The notes under the pieces: model-generated | Databases searched by the model: none | What the model saw: only the letters and a program-made list of their open reading frames with translations | Told to the model about the DNA's origin: nothing | Made by a program: the position numbers and the translations under genes | Assembly: GCA_947650875.1 (NCBI GenBank) | Contig: CANSXE010000005.1 | Span: forward strand, 1 to 58,479 | Direction of reading: 5' to 3' | Length of the DNA: 58,479 nt | From: an uncultured Bacillota bacterium | GTDB taxonomy: Bacteria; Bacillota; Clostridia; Oscillospirales; Oscillospiraceae | Shown here: positions 41,803 through 49,973 of the stretch, in pieces | Numbering within the stretch: the stretch's first letter is position 1 | How the letters are laid out: every line of letters begins with the position of its first letter

Positions 41803-41816
41803 AGACAAACCGTCTC

Positions 41817-41847
41817 GGGCGGCCGAATTTTTCGGCCGCCCGTTTTT
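41817..41847 (+). terminator. Terminator of the sugar operon
   Basis: A 10-bp stem GGGCGGCCGA and complement with a short AT loop is followed by GTTTTTG. Confidence 0.88.
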
Positions 41848-41862
41848 GATGTGCTTCGACGA

Positions 41863-41891
41863 TTGAAATACCGGGGACGCTGTGGTACAAT
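41863..41891 (+). promoter_or_regulatory. Promoter of the SWIM/MoxR/VWA operon
   Basis: TTGAAA and TACAAT are separated by 17 bp, 42 bp before the first ATG, which has GAGGAGG in front. Confidence 0.75.
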
Positions 41892-41933: not shown

Positions 41934-43376
41934 ATGGTATTGACGGAGCAATTCATCCTGCTCCAGGCACCCAACCCCGCAGCGGCGGAGAACGGGCGGA
42001 AACTGTGGAAAAAAGGGAGCTTCTCCGCCCTGCACCGGACCCGGGACGATACCCTGTATTGGGCGGAGTGCGCCGGCAGCGGCAAGAATCCCTACCATGT
42101 GTCCATTGACTGGGCCAACCCGGATGCTCCGGTGTGCCGGTGCTCCTGTCCCAGCCGGCAGTTCCCCTGTAAACACGCCCTGGGGCTGATGTTCCAGCAG
42201 CTGGCAGGCGGCGGGTTCGAGGAGGGGGAGATTCCCCAGGAGCTTGCGGACAAGCGGGCCAAACAGGCGGCCCGGGCCGCCAAAAAAGAGACTGCGGCGG
42301 ACGCGCCCCCCAAGCCCAAACGGACCAACACCGCCGCACAGAAAAAGAAATTGGCCAAACAGCTGGAGGGGCTGGACATGGCGGAGCGGATGGTGGACGA
42401 CCTGCTCTCCTCCGGCCTGGGGGCGCTGGCCGGAGCTTCGGCCCAGACCTATGACAAGCTGGCCAAGGACCTGGGCAGCTGCTACCTCACCGGCCCACAG
42501 ACCGCGTTCACCCGCATCGCCCTGGCGGTGCGCACCGTTCAGCAGGACCCGGAACAGGCGGAAAGGGCCTACAACCAGGCGCTGCGCATCCTGGTGGCTC
42601 TGCGGTCCACCATCAAAAAGTCCCGGACCTTCCTCCAGAACAAGCTGGAGGCGGGCAGCTTCTCCCCGGAGGACTCCGCCCTGTTCGAAGCCCTGGGCGG
42701 GGTGTGGAAGCTGGAGGACCTGCGGGCCATCAGCTCCTTCCGGGAGAATGTGCGGCTGGTTCAGCTGGCCTTTGGCGTGAGCTTTGACCAGGCCAAAAAG
42801 GAGTATGTGGAGCGGGGCTGGTGGATCGACCTGGATGCCGGAAACATCTTCCAGACGCTGAACCTGCGCCCCATGAAGGCGCTGAAATATGTGAAGGGGG
42901 AGGACAGCTGCTTCGGTGCGCTGGAGGTCCCCGTTCTGTACATCTACCCCGGGGAGGGGGACCGGCGGGTGCGCTGGGAGAGCGCCGCCCCCCGGCCCCT
43001 CACGGCCCAGGAGCAGGCAGCCCTGCCCGCCCTGGCCCAGCCCAGCCTGGCGGCTGCGGTGAAGGCGACCAAGGGGGCCATCAAAAACACCCTGGCCCCC
43101 AAATTCCTGGCGGTGCTGGTTCCCGTCGGAAGGCTGGGGAAGGCGGGGGAGACCTTTGTGCTGGAGGACCCCGCCGGGGAGCGGATCGTCCTGCGGGACC
43201 GGCCCGAGGACGGCCCCGGCCACGCCTGCACCGCCCGGCTGGCCATGCTGCCGGAGGAGGTTCCGGCGGGCAGCGCCCTCTTTGGCCTGATGTTTTACCA
43301 CGAGGGGGACCACTCCCTCTGCCTGCACCCCTACAGCGTAGTCACACCGGAGAAGGTTATCCGGTTACTGTATTGA
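41934..43376 (+). CDS. SWIM zinc-finger protein
   Basis: 480 residues, first gene of a five-gene operon. The SWIM motif CxC-x6-CxH is complete (C70, C72, C79, H81), a zinc site thought to bind DNA or protein. The N-terminal part around WAECAGSGKNPYHVSIDW is the conserved lead-in to the finger. Residues 95-125 are lysine/alanine-rich and likely a flexible linker. The remaining 350 residues are mixed helical and unassigned. By composition of the operon it corresponds to E. coli YehQ. Confidence 0.87.
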   Translation: MVLTEQFILLQAPNPAAAENGRKLWKKGSFSALHRTRDDTLYWAECAGSGKNPYHVSIDWANPDAPVCRCSCPSRQFPCKHALGLMFQQLAGGGFEEGEIPQELADKRAKQAARAAKKETAADAPPKPKRTNTAAQKKKLAKQLEGLDMAERMVDDLLSSGLGALAGASAQTYDKLAKDLGSCYLTGPQTAFTRIALAVRTVQQDPEQAERAYNQALRILVALRSTIKKSRTFLQNKLEAGSFSPEDSALFEALGGVWKLEDLRAISSFRENVRLVQLAFGVSFDQAKKEYVERGWWIDLDAGNIFQTLNLRPMKALKYVKGEDSCFGALEVPVLYIYPGEGDRRVRWESAAPRPLTAQEQAALPALAQPSLAAAVKATKGAIKNTLAPKFLAVLVPVGRLGKAGETFVLEDPAGERIVLRDRPEDGPGHACTARLAMLPEEVPAGSALFGLMFYHEGDHSLCLHPYSVVTPEKVIRLLY

Positions 43377-43389
43377 GGAGGTGGCATCT

Positions 43390-45309
43390 ATGAATTTACA
43401 GCCTCTTTATGACGTGAAGGAGCGGCTGGAGCAAGCCGCTATAGCCGGCGCCGGCCTGCTGGGGGAGGACTTCCGTCTCCAGCGGGCGGCGGAGCAGCTG
43501 AAGCCCCTGGCCGGGGCCAGCCCGGTGTTTGGAAAGATCGACGTGGGCCTGACACAGCTGCTGTCTGCCCCGGCGGGAGAGCGGTCCGGCCGGCTGCTGG
43601 ACCTGCTGGCCCTGGTGGACGCGGTGGTCTACACCCAGGGGAAAACCGGCGCGCCCGGGGAGCTGGTCCCCCTGCCCACCGGGGGTGGACAGTATCAGGA
43701 GCTGTCCTACGGCCAGCTGTCCCCCCTCCTCACCGCCCTCACCACCACCGGCGGCGGGCGGATGGAAATAATCAAGTCCGCCTGGGAGGACCGCCCGGAG
43801 CTTTTCAGCGACTTCCGGGTGCTGCCCGCGGTGGTGGCCGGATTGGGGGACAGCTACGGCGAAATCAGTGAGCTGAACGCTGAAATTCTCAAGGCGCTCG
43901 GTCCTGCTTCCCTCCCCCTGTTGAAGGAGGGCTTCGATCCCGCCGGCAACAAGGCCATGGCCCGGCGGGTGGAGGTGGTCTCCGCCCTGGAGGGTGCGGC
44001 AGCTTCCCCCTGGCTGCGGGAGATTCTGCCCCAGGCCAAGAAAGACGTGCGCACCGCTGTTCTGGCCGCCCTGGGGACGAACCGGGAAAATACCTCCCTC
44101 CTGCTGGAGCTGGTCCAGACCGAGAGGGGCGCCAACCGGGATGCCGTCCTCCAGGCCCTGGCCGGACAGGACGGCGAGGGCGTCCGGGCCTTCTGGGAGA
44201 AGGAGCTGGAGAAAAACAGCGACGCGGTGAAGTTTCTGGAGCCGTCCAATGCGGACTGGGCCATCGAGCTGGTGACAAGCGGCCTGCGGCAGAGACTGGA
44301 GCAGTTCCTGGACGGCGGGAAACGCCCCACCTATGAGGAGGGCACCAACCTTACAACCTGGTGCTGGAGCCTGGGGCGCAAGGACTCCCCAATGATGCTG
44401 GACTTTTGGCGCTGGGTGGACAGCCGTGTGGAGAAGATCGACCGGATCAAAGACGAGAAGGACCGCCCGTTTTTCTTCGGGGTGAAGCTCACCGAGCGGC
44501 TGCTGGACATTCTCCGCCACACCGGTCCCGGCCCCCTGCGGGACTACTGCCTGAATCTGTTTGACAGCCACCCCGCCATGACCCGGTATCTGTCCGTCAG
44601 CTTCCCGGCCGCCCTGCTGTCCTGCCCGGCGGCGGAGGTCTTTGAGAAGTACGGCCCCTATATCCTGACGGAGGAGCCCACCCAGGACGCGGAACAGAAA
44701 AAGACCCTGAACACCGTCCTGCTCCGGGCGCTGGGCGATGTGTGGTGGTATCCTCAGGGGGAGCGCTATAACCTCTATGGGGGCCTGTCTACCGCCGAAC
44801 CTCTGGATATCCGGTGGATTGAGCGGCTCACCCGGGCGGTCTGCACCGACGTGCCCAGAAGGGGCGGCGCTTCCCCCTTCGCCTACTACTGGGAGGACGT
44901 GCCCGAGTTTGACCGGACCCTCATGCGGCTGGTCAACCCGGGGGACGAGCGGTGCCGGGAGCTGATGGTCCTCTATCTGCGAAAACGTCTGGACGAAACC
45001 GGCCTGCCCTACCACTACAGCCGCTGGCTGATTCAGCTGGGGGACAGTCCCCGGGGGCTGTTCGGCAAGGCGATGGCCAAAAACCCTTCGGCCAACCACC
45101 TGTATGTGGTGTGGAACCTGATGCACGAAGCCAGCCAGATGCTTCCCGCTGAGGAAGTCATCGCCCTGCTGGAGGAGTTTCAAGCTGCCGGCGCCGCCCG
45201 GAAACAGGCTATGGCCCATTTCCAAAAGGCCATCCCCTGGACGGTGGAACAGCTCCGGGCGGGCAAACCCTTCCCGGATTGGGACGACTGGGAGAAAGCC
45301 GGCAAATAA
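43390..45309 (+). CDS. HEAT-repeat-like scaffold protein (DUF5691 type)
   Basis: 639 residues, predominantly helical, with repeated two-helix units, for example LPLLKEGFDPAGNKAMARRVEVVSAL, WLREILPQAKKDVRTAVLAAL and NRDAVLQALAGQDGEGVRAFW at about 165-280, as in HEAT or Armadillo scaffolds. I assign the family DUF5691 from memory of conserved neighbourhoods with SWIM, MoxR, DUF5682 and VWA genes, not from a search. ATG 43390 lies just after GAGGAGG; GTG 43381 falls inside that site. It starts 13 bp after the SWIM gene. Confidence 0.75.
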   Translation: MNLQPLYDVKERLEQAAIAGAGLLGEDFRLQRAAEQLKPLAGASPVFGKIDVGLTQLLSAPAGERSGRLLDLLALVDAVVYTQGKTGAPGELVPLPTGGGQYQELSYGQLSPLLTALTTTGGGRMEIIKSAWEDRPELFSDFRVLPAVVAGLGDSYGEISELNAEILKALGPASLPLLKEGFDPAGNKAMARRVEVVSALEGAAASPWLREILPQAKKDVRTAVLAALGTNRENTSLLLELVQTERGANRDAVLQALAGQDGEGVRAFWEKELEKNSDAVKFLEPSNADWAIELVTSGLRQRLEQFLDGGKRPTYEEGTNLTTWCWSLGRKDSPMMLDFWRWVDSRVEKIDRIKDEKDRPFFFGVKLTERLLDILRHTGPGPLRDYCLNLFDSHPAMTRYLSVSFPAALLSCPAAEVFEKYGPYILTEEPTQDAEQKKTLNTVLLRALGDVWWYPQGERYNLYGGLSTAEPLDIRWIERLTRAVCTDVPRRGGASPFAYYWEDVPEFDRTLMRLVNPGDERCRELMVLYLRKRLDETGLPYHYSRWLIQLGDSPRGLFGKAMAKNPSANHLYVVWNLMHEASQMLPAEEVIALLEEFQAAGAARKQAMAHFQKAIPWTVEQLRAGKPFPDWDDWEKAGK

Positions 45310-45324
45310 TTGGAGGAATGAACC

Positions 45325-46413
45325 ATGAAAAATGTACAGCGGCTCCCGGCAGAGGAGCTTTTCCAGCGGGAGCTGGACGCTTTAATCTCGGCGGAGACCG
45401 ACCCCATTCCCACCGGATGGCGGATGTCCCCCCGGTCGGTGTTGACCTACATCCAGGGCAACACCACTGTCAAGGGCGTTGAGATTACCCCCAAGTACAT
45501 CGGCAACAGGCGGCTGGTGGAGATCGCCATCGCCACCCTCCTCACCGACCGGGCCCTTCTCCTCATCGGTGAGCCGGGCACCGCCAAGAGCTGGCTCAGC
45601 GAGCACCTGGCCGCCGCCATCACCGGCGACTCCACCAAGGTGGTCCAGGGCACCGCCGGCACCACCGAGGAGCAGATCAAATACTCCTGGAACTACGCCA
45701 TGCTCATCGCCAAGGGCCCCTGCCCCGAAGCCATGGTGAAAAGCCCCGTCTACCGGGCCATGGAGTCGGGCTCCATCGCCCGCATTGAGGAAATTTCCCG
45801 CTGCGCCAGCGAGGTCCAGGACGCCCTCATCTCCATCCTGTCGGAAAAGCGGCTGTCCGTCCCTGAGCTGGGGCTGGAGCTCCCGGCACAGAAGGGATTT
45901 TCGGTGATTGCCACCGCCAACACCCGGGACAAGGGGGTCAACGACATGTCGGCCGCCCTGAAACGGCGGTTTAACATCATAGTCCTGCCCACCCCGGCGG
46001 ACATTCAGGACGAGATGGATATCGTCCAGACCCGGGTGGAGCAGCTGTCCGCCGGGCTGGACCTGAACGCCCGCCAGCCCGACGTGGACACGGTGGAGAA
46101 GGTGGTCACCATTTTCCGGGAGCTGCGCTCCGGGGCCACCCTGGACGGCAAGCAGAAGCTGAAGCCCACCTCCGGGGTGCTGTCCACCGCCGAGGCCATC
46201 TCCCTGCTGTGCAACTCCATGGCCCTGGCCGGCTCCTTCGGAGATGGCGGGATCATGCCTGAGGACCTGGCCGCCGCCCTCCAGGGCGCGGTGGTGAAGG
46301 ACGAGGACAAGGACAAGGTGAGCTGGAAAGAATATCTGGAGAATGTTATGAAGAAGCGGGGGAGCCAGTGGCTGCCCCTCTACCGGGCCTGCCGGGAGCT
46401 GAACGGAAAATGA
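45325..46413 (+). CDS. MoxR-family AAA+ ATPase
   Basis: 362 residues. Walker A is LLIGEPGTAKSWL (about residue 82). The Walker B region reads IARIEEISRC where most relatives have a hydrophobic stretch ending in DE, so the first acidic residue is glutamate. Sensor 1 is VIATANTRDKG and the arginine finger region ALKRRFN. MoxR ATPases act as chaperones that insert metals or remodel partners, usually with a VWA protein; here the VWA gene is two genes downstream. It overlaps the next gene by 4 bp. It corresponds to E. coli YehL. Confidence 0.9.
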   Translation: MKNVQRLPAEELFQRELDALISAETDPIPTGWRMSPRSVLTYIQGNTTVKGVEITPKYIGNRRLVEIAIATLLTDRALLLIGEPGTAKSWLSEHLAAAITGDSTKVVQGTAGTTEEQIKYSWNYAMLIAKGPCPEAMVKSPVYRAMESGSIARIEEISRCASEVQDALISILSEKRLSVPELGLELPAQKGFSVIATANTRDKGVNDMSAALKRRFNIIVLPTPADIQDEMDIVQTRVEQLSAGLDLNARQPDVDTVEKVVTIFRELRSGATLDGKQKLKPTSGVLSTAEAISLLCNSMALAGSFGDGGIMPEDLAAALQGAVVKDEDKDKVSWKEYLENVMKKRGSQWLPLYRACRELNGK

Positions 46414-48746
46414 GCGGGCCGGTATTTTTCGGGGTGCGCCACCTGTCCCCGGCGGCGGCGTACCACCTGCGCCGGGCGCTGGACGCGGCAAAGCCCAGCT
46501 TAATTCTGGTGGAGGGCCCCAGCGATTTGAGCGGGCAGATGGAGTGGCTGTGCCACCCAGAGACAAAATTCCCCGCCGCCATCCTGGCCTACACCAAGAC
46601 GCCGCCGGTGCGCACCGTGCTGTGGCCCTTCGCCATCTACTCCCCGGAGGTCCAGGCGATCCTCTGGGCCCATGAGCACGGGGTGGAGTGCCGGTTTATG
46701 GACCTGCCCTCCTCTGTATTTCTGGCATTCCGGGAGGACCCTCTCCGTCACGGCTCCGCCGTGCCGCCACCCCAAGAGGGGGAGGTAAGGGACACGGAAA
46801 CGAGCGCCCCCTCCGGGGGAGTTGTCGAGGGGAGCGAGACTGAGAGGGCATCCACCGAATCGGTCTACAAGCGCCTGGAGACCCTCACCGGCGAGGACCA
46901 CGACACCTTCTGGGAGCGAAATTTCGAGCAGATTAATAACTTTGAGGAATACCAGGCGGTCTGCAATACATTTGGCAATCAGCTCCGGGCGGCTTCGGAG
47001 GACAGCCAGTGGGACAGGGCCGAGACGGTGGTGCGGGAGGCCTACATGAAACGGGTAATCTGCCAGGCCGTCGGCAGCGGCGTGCCGACAGAGGAGATTT
47101 TCTGCGTCTGCGGGTCCTTCCATGTGGCGGGTCTGGAGGAAAATTCCCCCATGACCGACGAAGAGGAGGACGCCCTGCCCCGGACGGAGGCCTGCGCCAC
47201 CCTGATGCCCTACTCCTACTACCGGCTCACCACCCGCTCCGGCTACGGGGCGGGGAATAAGGCCCCGGCCTACTTTGAGCTGCTGTGGGACGCCCTCAAC
47301 GGCAAAGGTCCGGGGGAGGTCCCCTACCTCTACCTGACCCGGCTGGCTGCCGCCCACAGGAACGCAGGCAATCTGACCTCCTCCGCCGAGGTCATCGAGT
47401 CTGTCCGGCTGGCCCAGGCCCTCTGCGCCATGCGGGGGAGCAAGTACCCCACACTGTCAGACCTGCGGGACGCCTCCGTCACTACTATGGGCCATGGGCA
47501 GTTCTCCGAGCTGGCTCTGGCGGCGGCGGACACGGAAATCGGCAAAACCATCGGCTTTCTCCCCCAGGGGGTGGCCCGCACCAGCGTGCAGGAGGACTTT
47601 TACCGGCAGCTCAAAGAGCTGCGGCTGGAGAAATTCCGCACTGTCCAGATCCAGCAGCTGGACCTGGATTTGCGGGAGAAGCTGAATGTGAAGTCGGAGA
47701 CGGCCGCCCTGGCCGACCTGCGCCGGTCCTTCTTCCTCCACCGCCTGCGGGTGCTGGGGGTCCACTTCGCCGCCCTCCTCCCCTCCCGGCAGGAGGGGGC
47801 CAGCTGGGGGGAGTACTGGGAGCTGCGCTGGACCCCGGAGGTGGAAATTGAAGTTGTGGAGTCCGCCCTCATGGGGGACACCATTGAAGGGGCAGCGGCT
47901 TTCGCCCTGAAGGAGCGGGCGGACAACAGCACCGCCCTTGACCAGGCTGCGTCCATCTTCCAGGACGCTTTCCTGTGCGGGATGCCCGCCGCCGCCCAGC
48001 ATGCCCTGTCCATCTTGCAGGGGCTGGGGGTGGACGCCGCCGCCCTTGCCGACGTGGCTGAGACGGCTTCCCGGCTCAGCCTGGTGGTGCGGTACGGCGA
48101 CCTGCGGCGGTTTGACGCAGAGCCGGTGATCCCCCTTGTAAAGCAGTTATACCTGCGGGCCTGTCTCACCCTGGCGGATGCCTGTATCTGCGACGCTCAG
48201 GCCGCATCCGCTGTGACCCAGGCAATGGACAGGTTAAACACTTTACAGCTCAGCCACGACTTTCTGGAGGAGGAGCGGTGGATTTCCCTGCTGGAGGAAA
48301 TCTCCGACCGGGACGACCTGAATACCCGCTGCTCCGGCTTTGCCATGGCCATCCTTCTGGAGCGGGGCAGGGCGGACGAGGACCTCCTCGCCCGGGAGGT
48401 GGCCCGGCGGCTGTCACCCGGCGTGCCCGCTGATTTGGGGGCGGGGTGGTTCGAGGGACTGGCGGGGAAAAACCGCTATGCCCTCATTGCCCGGCTGTCC
48501 CTGTGGCGGCAGCTGGACGACTACCTCAATACCCTGGACGACGAGACCTTCCGCCGGGCGCTGGTGTTTTTGCGCCGGGCCTTCGCGGATTTCTCCCCCA
48601 AGGAGAAGAACGACATCGCGGAAAACCTGGGGGAAATCTGGGGCGTGAACCCCCAGCAGGCGGCGGAGCTGCTGATGAACGAGACAACAGAAGCCGAACA
48701 GGCGGTTTTAGAGAGCCTGTCCGACTTCGACTTTGACGATATCTGA
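46410..48746 (+). CDS. DUF5682 family protein with an in-frame repeat insertion
   Basis: 778 residues, a large helical protein starting MSGPVFFGVRHLSPAAAYHL and containing SLILVEGPSDL near residue 35. I assign DUF5682 (E. coli YehM) by the start motif and operon position. Residues about 110-147 (HGSAVPPPQEGEVRDTETSA and the following SGGVVEGSETE) are encoded by a stretch that matches the genome's family B palindromic repeats and look like a disordered insert. The frame is kept and no stop is introduced. ATG 46410 overlaps the ATPase stop by ATGA; a longer in-frame start is unlikely. Function unknown; probably a subunit worked on by the ATPase. Confidence 0.82.
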   Translation: MSGPVFFGVRHLSPAAAYHLRRALDAAKPSLILVEGPSDLSGQMEWLCHPETKFPAAILAYTKTPPVRTVLWPFAIYSPEVQAILWAHEHGVECRFMDLPSSVFLAFREDPLRHGSAVPPPQEGEVRDTETSAPSGGVVEGSETERASTESVYKRLETLTGEDHDTFWERNFEQINNFEEYQAVCNTFGNQLRAASEDSQWDRAETVVREAYMKRVICQAVGSGVPTEEIFCVCGSFHVAGLEENSPMTDEEEDALPRTEACATLMPYSYYRLTTRSGYGAGNKAPAYFELLWDALNGKGPGEVPYLYLTRLAAAHRNAGNLTSSAEVIESVRLAQALCAMRGSKYPTLSDLRDASVTTMGHGQFSELALAAADTEIGKTIGFLPQGVARTSVQEDFYRQLKELRLEKFRTVQIQQLDLDLREKLNVKSETAALADLRRSFFLHRLRVLGVHFAALLPSRQEGASWGEYWELRWTPEVEIEVVESALMGDTIEGAAAFALKERADNSTALDQAASIFQDAFLCGMPAAAQHALSILQGLGVDAAALADVAETASRLSLVVRYGDLRRFDAEPVIPLVKQLYLRACLTLADACICDAQAASAVTQAMDRLNTLQLSHDFLEEERWISLLEEISDRDDLNTRCSGFAMAILLERGRADEDLLAREVARRLSPGVPADLGAGWFEGLAGKNRYALIARLSLWRQLDDYLNTLDDETFRRALVFLRRAFADFSPKEKNDIAENLGEIWGVNPQQAAELLMNETTEAEQAVLESLSDFDFDDI
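46738..46848 (+). repeat. Family B palindromic element inside a coding region
   Basis: CCGTCACGGCT-CGCCG-GCC and the following CCCCAAGAGGGGG match the right half of the 7318-7432 element read on the other strand. They are followed by CCCCCTCCGGGGGAGTTGTC and ACTGAGAGGG, which match a left half. About 111 bp (37 codons) are therefore repeat-derived. Confidence 0.75.
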
Positions 48747-48755
48747 TGGGTAATA

Positions 48756-48784
48756 TGCAGGGGCATACATTGTGCGCCCCTGCA
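48756..48784. repeat. Short GC palindrome (family C) before the VWA gene
   Basis: TGCAGGGGC and GCCCCTGCA arms flank an 11-base centre containing CATTGTG. Related GTAGGGGC / GCCCCTGC arms occur at 53868-53938. Confidence 0.6.
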
Positions 48785-48806
48785 GGCAGCGTGATGAGGT
48801 GATTTT

Positions 48807-49973
48807 ATGTCACAAACTGAACAGCTCTCCCGCTGGCGGCTGATTTTGGGCGCGGAGACGGAGCAGTCCTTTGGCGGTATGGGGGGGATGCCCCTGTCCC
48901 GGGAGGAGCTGCTGATGGATTCCGCCCTGGGGGCCATCTACGGCGGACCGGGGGAGAGCTTTGGGGAATCCGGCCGGGGAGCGGGGAAGGGGCCGTCCTC
49001 CCCTGTGATCTCCAAGTGGCTGGGGGACCTGCGGTCCCTCTTCGACCCGGAGACGGTGGCGGTGGTGCAGAACGACGCCATCGAGCGCAAGGGCTTAAAG
49101 CAGCTCCTGCTGGAGCCCGAGCTGCTGGACACTCTGGAGCCCGACCTGAATCTGGCATCCACCCTGCTTATGCTCAAGGACCAGATTCCCAAGAAGTCCA
49201 AGGAGTCCGCCCGGAGCTTTATCCGCAAGATCGTGGAGGAGATCAACAAGCTGCTGGAGAACGACATGCGCCGGGCGGTGACGGCGGCTCTGAACCGCCG
49301 GGCCCACTCCCCTCTGCCCTCCGCTTCCGCTCTGGATTTTCCCTATACGATTCGGAGAAATCTAAAGAATTATAACAAGGAGTTGGGAGTTGTCATCCCG
49401 GAACGGGTCTGGTTCTTCGACCGTTCCAGCCGGGTGAACCGGTGGCACGTCATTCTGGACATCGACCAGAGCGGGTCCATGGGCCAGTCCATCCTCTACT
49501 CGTCGGTGATGGCCTGCGTACTGGCGTCCATGTCCGCAGTGAAAACCAGTGTGGTGGCCTTCGATACCCAGATCATGGACCTCACCCCCCTGTGTGCCGA
49601 CCCAGTGGACCTGCTCTTTGGCTTTCAGATGGGGGGCGGCACCGACATCGCCAAATCCATCGCCTACTGCCAGAATCTGGTGGAGAGTCCGGCCAAGACC
49701 CTGTTCTTCCTCATCTCCGATCTGGACGAGGGGGGCAACCGGGCGGGTCTTCTCCGGCGGCTGGAGGAGCTGAAAAGCTCCGGGGTGACGGTGGTGGTCC
49801 TGCTGGCCATTGCCGACGGGGGCAAGCCCTATTACGACGCCCAGACCGCCCAGCGGGTGGCGGCCATGGACATCCCCTGCTTCGCCTGCGCCCCGGAGAA
49901 GCTGCCCGAGCTGCTGGAGCGGGCGCTGACCGGAGGGCTGGGGGCCGGCTGGGAGGTAACCCTCCAAAGGTGA
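48807..49973 (+). CDS. VWA-domain protein of the MoxR operon
   Basis: 388 residues. The C-terminal half is a von Willebrand factor A domain. The MIDAS metal motif DIDQSGSMGQS is at about 218-228, the threonine in MGGGTDIAKSI near 275, and the aspartate in FFLISDLDEGGNR near 305, so metal binding should be intact. The N-terminal half is helical, with an SxSARSFIRKIVEEINKLLE coiled stretch, as in CoxE-like partners of MoxR. It is the last gene of the operon, corresponding to E. coli YehP, and is likely the adaptor or substrate-recruiting subunit for the ATPase. The GTGATGAGGTG region provides the ribosome site. Confidence 0.9.
   Translation: MSQTEQLSRWRLILGAETEQSFGGMGGMPLSREELLMDSALGAIYGGPGESFGESGRGAGKGPSSPVISKWLGDLRSLFDPETVAVVQNDAIERKGLKQLLLEPELLDTLEPDLNLASTLLMLKDQIPKKSKESARSFIRKIVEEINKLLENDMRRAVTAALNRRAHSPLPSASALDFPYTIRRNLKNYNKELGVVIPERVWFFDRSSRVNRWHVILDIDQSGSMGQSILYSSVMACVLASMSAVKTSVVAFDTQIMDLTPLCADPVDLLFGFQMGGGTDIAKSIAYCQNLVESPAKTLFFLISDLDEGGNRAGLLRRLEELKSSGVTVVVLLAIADGGKPYYDAQTAQRVAAMDIPCFACAPEKLPELLERALTGGLGAGWEVTLQR

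Follow-up and report, generated by a model that had tools for sequence, protein, structure and literature searches.

Five genes, coding in order for a SWIM zinc-finger protein, a helical-repeat protein, a MoxR-class AAA+ ATPase, a DUF5682 protein and a VWA protein, form one operon (41934-49973, + strand) in the window, the 58,479-nucleotide stretch of DNA from a gut Bacillota bacterium analyzed here. Three features of its products are new here: an N-terminal domain of the TraB/TIKI type in the DUF5682 protein, a predicted OB-like C-terminal end in the SWIM protein, and a C-terminal part of the helical protein that is hypervariable and exchangeable. The reading we prefer, which taken whole falls just short of an even call, is that the MoxR and VWA proteins would drive a DUF5682 hydrolase whose target is selected by the exchangeable subunit, perhaps in biological conflict.

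The operon and its occurrence

All five genes lie on the + strand: the SWIM gene (41934-43376; 480 amino acids), the gene for the helical-repeat, HEAT-like protein of an unnamed family (43390-45309; 639 amino acids), the MoxR-class ATPase gene (45325-46413; 362 amino acids), the DUF5682 gene (46410-48746; 778 amino acids) and the VWA_CoxE gene (48807-49973; 388 amino acids). The DUF5682 assignment combines Pfam, alignment and structure comparison; the SWIM, ATPase (AAA_5) and VWA assignments come from Pfam. Successive genes are spaced by 13, 15, -4 (an overlap) and 60 nt, exactly the packing described in the initial annotation. The helical gene starts at ATG 43390; an alternative GTG at 43381 is less likely because the AGGAGG sequence overlaps it and sits 8 nt 5′ of the ATG. 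Directly 3′ of the preceding gene is a strong intrinsic terminator-like hairpin (41816-41842, + strand; 12 pairs, 10 of them G-C, and a T tail), and a sigma-70-like promoter, TTGAAA-17-TACAAT, with 10 of 12 consensus matches, lies ahead of the operon (41863-41891, + strand). The single promoter claimed at the outset is only plausible, since 8.3 kb contain two such sites where 1.0 is expected by chance.

A palindrome (48756-48784; 14-nt arms, 86% complementary) occupies the gap between the DUF5682 and VWA genes and occurs at two places in its own genome. As a needed part of the system it was rejected: in 25 of the 41 relatives having both genes this gap measures 30 nt or less, leaving most of them no room for it. 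Two loci carry a 159-amino-acid open reading frame between the same two genes (L016, 12272-12748; L029, 12437-12913), similar by eye. The source genome, a 2.09-Mb draft, 77% complete, contains a single DUF5682 copy.

A search of a genome collection with the DUF5682 protein alone yielded 45 related loci. All five genes are present, some in part, in 35 of these, in the same order and on the same strand in 35/35, which bears out the idea that they travel together. Gene by gene, SWIM is found in 38 loci, the helical protein in 39, the ATPase in 42 and VWA in 41. Nine of the ten incomplete loci are cut by a contig end; the tenth (L030, 8907-12277) is not, and has ATPase and DUF5682 genes with no SWIM, helical or VWA match, being either a remnant or a minimal form of the operon. 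The ATPase and DUF5682 genes overlap in 42/42 cases, making them the tightest pair. Counting the source genome each time, presence is patchy: within the genus 12 of 37 genomes have the operon, as do 13 of 60 relatives and, in the phylum, 7 of 299 (5 over the cut-off).

Surroundings vary. By tblastx, 42 of 73 flanks, the window's two among them, have under 1.5 kb in common with any other locus. Within the genus, four relatives (L109, L110, L111, L114) carry the upstream block and another (L112) the cysK side without the operon (4.8-9.6 kb beyond the flank examined); a relative in which the flanks meet was not found, and no insertion site is shown (L113 is too short). A scan of 111 flanking open reading frames, at most two per side beyond a complete end and leaving out eight loci (seven that share flanks with another locus, and L045), gave PADLOC matches for at most 6. 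The flanks are ordinary, and a defence-island setting is not supported. Nor did PADLOC identify a known defence system in the five proteins, which gave weak, partial matches, the best between SWIM protein residues 14-86 and PDC-S62 (E 2e-4). An unverified 14-kb "Bacteriophage sp." record (MT835988.1; L066), which may be bacterial DNA, encodes an ATPase, a DUF5682 and a VWA protein at 51-78% identity, and a single IMG/VR scan, in which the ATPase was the query, confirmed no relative.

The DUF5682 protein, the motor pair and the SWIM protein

The DUF5682 assignment made initially proved sound (PF18934, residues 20-752; 508 bits against a cut-off of 26). The protein has two parts, a TraB/TIKI-type N-terminal domain (residues ~1-270) and a C-terminal helical solenoid (~285-770). 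That the former is related to TraB/TIKI we regard as highly probable. Profile comparison with a pair of TraB proteins gave a probability of 95.7% (E 8.8e-9), against 4.9% for the GumN group; a mixed TraB and GumN profile scored 93.7%, but on 40 columns out of register. The ChaN Pfam model matches 1 of 18 DUF5682 members at E 0.01. In the predicted structure the domain has the TIKI alpha/beta fold, with a TraB-family protein as its best structural match. This match comes from the VIA second look and the profiles, not from whole-model Foldseek, where the 50 matches listed were mostly solenoids at weak E.

Four sites are invariant in 18/18 aligned sequences: the predicted active-site residues His11 (GVRHxSP; 46440-46442), Glu35 (LxEGP; 46512-46514) and His238 (CGxFH; 47121-47123), and Arg209-Glu210 (REAYM; 47034-47039), holding the predicted TIKI basic residue (all + strand). 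With the TraB/TIKI superfamily (TraB, RRSP, ChaN, erythromycin esterases) the domain has in common its fold, the GxxH-like start and end motifs, a Glu that follows the second strand and an Arg that precedes the last His. It differs in being joined to a large C-terminal solenoid and tied to a MoxR-VWA motor. The Glu that stands two residues ahead of the first His in RRSP and Ere is absent (V or I in the DUF5682 alignment, T in the TraB pair), so that DUF5682, like the TraB pair, is missing the initial Glu of RRSP's 2His/2Glu set. The N-terminal domain is probably a hydrolase, and the solenoid a probable platform. Both helical proteins had been proposed as scaffold or target; its TraB/TIKI-type N-terminal domain makes DUF5682 more than either.

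The ATPase matches AAA_5 with 136 bits, bpMoxR with 28.0 bits (barely above the cut-off of 27) and NorQ at E 2.2e-4. Its Walker A motif, G-x-PGTAK-[ST] with S or T at position 89, is kept in 16/16 aligned sequences, as is E155-E156. The VWA protein (VWA_CoxE, 150 bits) has the MIDAS sequence DQSGS (49464-49478, + strand), conforming to D-x-S-[GA]-S in 15/15. Together with the SWIM motif (below), these counts uphold the initial statement that the domain motifs are intact, and a MoxR-class ATPase with an intact Walker A stands in one operon with an intact-MIDAS VWA protein, as in NorQ/NorD and other MoxR-VWA pairs; compared with NorQ/NorD the window's operon has three extra subunits. In NorQD, a finger of the VWA protein enters the MoxR pore and ATP drives remodelling of the target, according to PMC13036017. 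By analogy, the motor might act on DUF5682 itself or on a substrate handed to it.

The same analogy also lends itself to a maturation chaperone, which we judge to have about one chance in four of being the right account. The MoxR and VWA proteins would then bring DUF5682, or else an enzyme of metabolism, to maturity, by inserting metal or in some other way, with the SWIM and helical proteins as adaptors in a housekeeping role. NorQD, a system of this kind, serves nitric oxide reductase (PMC13036017); the tightness of the ATPase-DUF5682 pair (42/42), the ordinary flanks and the near-core status of the E. coli relatives yehM and yehI (see below) all agree with such a role. It leaves unexplained, on the other hand, the operon's patchy presence (12/37 in the genus, 7/299 in the phylum), as well as the replaced C-terminal part of the helical protein and the three mutually undetectable classes of solenoid described in the next section.

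The SWIM protein (PF04434, 27.1 bits against a cut-off of 19.6) consists of a SWIM domain (residues ~1-98), a helical bundle (130-245) and two modelled OB-like folds (262-474). Its CxCx6CxH motif (C70-H81; 42141-42176, + strand) is invariant, with C70, C72, C79 and H81 conserved in 29/29 aligned SWIM sequences. When the predicted structure was compared with tandem OB-folds of the RPA/HIN-200 kind, the match of the two C-terminal OB-like folds was moderate. With its zinc domain and these modelled folds, the protein is likely to be a nucleic-acid-binding or sensing subunit.

The helical protein and the slot it fills

The helical protein matches no Pfam family over the cut-off (HEAT_2 at E 0.24). 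The initial annotation had called it DUF5691-like, a label it was prepared to give up if profile searches returned no significant match. Profile comparison with DUF5691 gave a probability of 1.4% (hhalign), and PF18944 has no match anywhere in the source genome at E 0.001; DUF5691 identity is not supported by profile comparison or Pfam, and the label was dropped. Comparison with two DUF4132 proteins gave 0.8% (hhalign). No mutual relation among the three solenoid classes (helical, DUF5691 and DUF4132) was detected by profiles, and on this sequence evidence the helical protein belongs to a third, unnamed class in a slot that DUF5691 or DUF4132 fills elsewhere.

Beyond Bacillota and Fusobacterium, the set is found again with a different subunit in the helical slot, and the ATPase (16 sequences), DUF5682 (18) and VWA (15) remain alignable across all members compared. 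Operons of Deinococcus, Rhizobium, Hymenobacter and Methylosinus have the window's gene order, SWIM-DUF5691-AAA-DUF5682(-VWA), the VWA gene not being annotated in Methylosinus and SWIM being fused to DUF5691 in Hymenobacter. Their ATPase, DUF5682 and, where present, VWA proteins are homologous to the window's, as are their SWIM proteins (hhalign probability 99.8%, over the ~195 first residues). DUF5691 is equivalent to the helical protein by position, because it occupies the same slot in the operons of these other phyla, and not by detectable sequence. It further differs in not being hypervariable among four Rhizobium plasmids. A small extra gene lies between the ATPase and DUF5682 genes in Deinococcus (L062, 9756-9992) and Hymenobacter (L064, 9362-9973).

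In E. coli, the counterparts are yehI (DUF4132), yehK, yehL, yehM, yehP and yehQ. As initially proposed, the ATPase, DUF5682 and VWA proteins of yehL-yehM-yehP are homologous to the window's and in the same order, and here too their neighbours include a SWIM protein and an additional large one. There are also differences: the SWIM gene is last rather than first, YehQ has no detected relation to the window's SWIM protein beyond the motif (hhalign 1.9%), and yehI replaces the helical protein. Unlike the window's patchy set, yehM and yehI are near-core, occurring in 5284 and 5283, respectively, of 5426 E. coli genomes (97%). yehI is the more varied: identity is 90-95% in 2054 of its 5285 records, against 119 of 5286 for yehM. 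In K-12, yehH is a pseudogene adjoining yehI (L060, 7411-10270). We take it to be of the same kind as yehI, in which case it would echo the tandem helical genes described below. Agrobacterium vitis has the order AAA-DUF5682-DUF4132-VWA-SWIM; directly 5′ of the ATPase gene lie two genes without known product and an "adenylosuccinate synthetase" gene (L076, 5440-8565), and a type VI secretion vgrG gene is a few kb upstream. The literature searched offered no function for the yehL/yehM/yehP/yehQ set (best 25 of 693 matches in the widest search, mostly unrelated words) and no paper on DUF5682, DUF5691 or COG4715; two papers mention at least two of the four yeh genes, each gene a single time.

The DUF4132 connection could indicate a part in nucleic-acid stress or repair, in which the SWIM/OB-like subunit and E. 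coli yehI would bind nucleic acid and the motor would remodel complexes after damage. We think this improbable. It can draw on the OB-like folds of the SWIM model, on yehI adjoining yehKLMPQ and on DUF4132 lying inside the A. vitis operon. Near yehI in E. coli is yehF (PF05406), presumably a WGR protein. Depletion of DdrO in Deinococcus radiodurans is reported to upregulate one DUF4132 protein and one WGR protein (PMC8533742), yet those genes were not tied there to a DUF5682 set. Moreover, the window's operon has no Pfam match to DUF4132 or WGR, and a repair role leaves the hypervariability of the helical protein unexplained.

This hypervariability emerges from 33 of the 45 loci with five complete genes, Fusobacterium locus L061 and the window. 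Median all-pairs identity (34 complete loci plus the window) is 89% for the ATPase, 83% for VWA, 76% for DUF5682, 72% for SWIM and 39% for the helical protein. Along the last, in 40-residue blocks, the N-terminal part (residues 1-160; 43390-43869, + strand), which we predict to be the docking part, is conserved at 62-78% (78% in residues 1-40, 65% in 121-160), and block medians fall to 21-28% from residue 281 onward. The C-terminal part (residues 280-639; 44227-45306, + strand) is the predicted recognition part. At 45% identity the C-parts of 44 helical proteins fall into 15 groups, many of which, but not all, are connected by profiles as remote homologues. The window's C-part is 26-30% identical to those of three c2-type proteins, a level that shuffling also gives (mean 26.6, sd 2.5; 30 shuffles), so their homology is drawn from the profiles alone. 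Identity of the C-part correlates loosely with that of the other genes (Spearman 0.31-0.34 over 595 pairs; 0.71-0.93 among the other genes themselves). Eleven pairs of loci have DUF5682 proteins at least 90% identical, and in 5 of these the C-parts are below 40%; all five include L032 or L042, so the pairs are not independent.

In at least these two genomes the C-part was replaced by a distant allele. Comparison of L004 with L032 gives DNA identities of 91-96% for the four other genes and for both flanks, falling to 80% in the N-part of the helical gene and to 54% in its C-part; dS is 1.39 in the C-part and 0.16-0.38 in the rest of the operon. L039 and L042 have the downstream flank in common, not the upstream one; their four other genes are 90-96% identical and the C-part 52%, with dS of 1.26 in the C-part and 0.16-0.49 elsewhere. 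Because C-part dS (1.26-1.39) so exceeds that of the remaining operon (0.16-0.49), these are replacements and not the result of speed alone. Four loci (L011, L018, L029, L037) contain extra tandem helical copies, 68-86% identical in the N-part and 19-45% in the C-part. Three records without a metagenome-bin label (L003, L011, L024) have last helical copies in three different C-part groups, so the diversity is not only a draft-genome artefact. At two loci a long gap contains no intact helical gene (L021, 4024-5939; L044, between the helical and ATPase genes) and may hold a decayed extra copy.

Solenoid repeats tolerate change, and the C-part might be no more than a loosely constrained, fast-evolving solenoid whose replacements are ordinary recombination. 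DUF5691 is likewise the fastest subunit between Methylosinus and Rhizobium (35-36% identity; 56-80% for the others), the replacement pairs stem from just two genomes, and omega between C-part types is high (0.63-0.92, 3 pairs), though at high dS. We nevertheless give neutral drift a low probability, comparable to that of a repair role. Within one C-part type omega is 0.13-0.23 (5 pairs), somewhat above the other operon genes (0.02-0.18) and indicative of constraint; the dS of the replaced pairs is not produced by amino-acid speed alone; and the 15 groups do not track the relatedness of the other genes.

A possible target-directed machine

The preferred model of a target-selecting subunit would work as follows. 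A MoxR-VWA remodelling motor would be built around the two-part DUF5682 protein, to which the helical protein would dock through its conserved N-terminal part; the exchangeable C-part would choose the target, and the SWIM protein would serve as the nucleic-acid-binding or sensing subunit. Once a target is bound, the MoxR ring and the VWA protein would hydrolyse ATP and remodel DUF5682 or its substrate, whereupon the hydrolase would act.

The use we consider most likely for such a machine is conflict, against components of phages, plasmids or competitors. The conflict-type machine of the initial annotation gains from the exchangeable subunit, the tandem copies, the patchy presence and the occurrence of MoxR-VWA modules in conflict settings elsewhere. 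Speaking against it are the few PADLOC matches in the flanks, the near-core status of yehM and yehI (97% of E. coli genomes), and the lack of hypervariability in the four Rhizobium plasmids. Among such settings are the vWA-MoxR-beta-propeller conflict systems (PMC7159879), which share the MoxR and VWA core, reflected in the bpMoxR score of the window's ATPase. Where they have a propeller the window has solenoids and a TraB/TIKI-type domain; none of the five proteins matches a beta-propeller family of Pfam at E 1 or better. vWA-MoxR-VMAP systems are described near CRISPR loci (PMC10910872). In Pseudomonas aeruginosa, PA4317-23, which encodes a VWF-domain protein along with a MoxR-like ATPase, is one of the arc1-3 clusters (we infer arc2), which according to PMC8926400 defend against bacterial competitors; unlike the window's operon, it is linked there to phospholipid-related genes.

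A bolder version, which we rate as rather unlikely, would make this an immune-like machine: a TraB/TIKI-type protease held by the MoxR-VWA motor would be aimed by a solenoid, the recognition end of which strains swap and multiply as tandem copies, and the nucleic-acid-sensing SWIM/OB subunit would arm it. E. coli yehLMPQ would then be a relative.

Mutagenesis of DUF5682 now has candidate residues in its TraB/TIKI-type site, and the exchangeable subunit poses a concrete question, namely the binding partner of each C-part. Both leads make testable an orphan system of which yehM and yehI are present in some 97% of complete E. coli genomes. If the helical subunit is a receptor, it would add to bacterial recognition a new layer that has a MoxR motor as its base.
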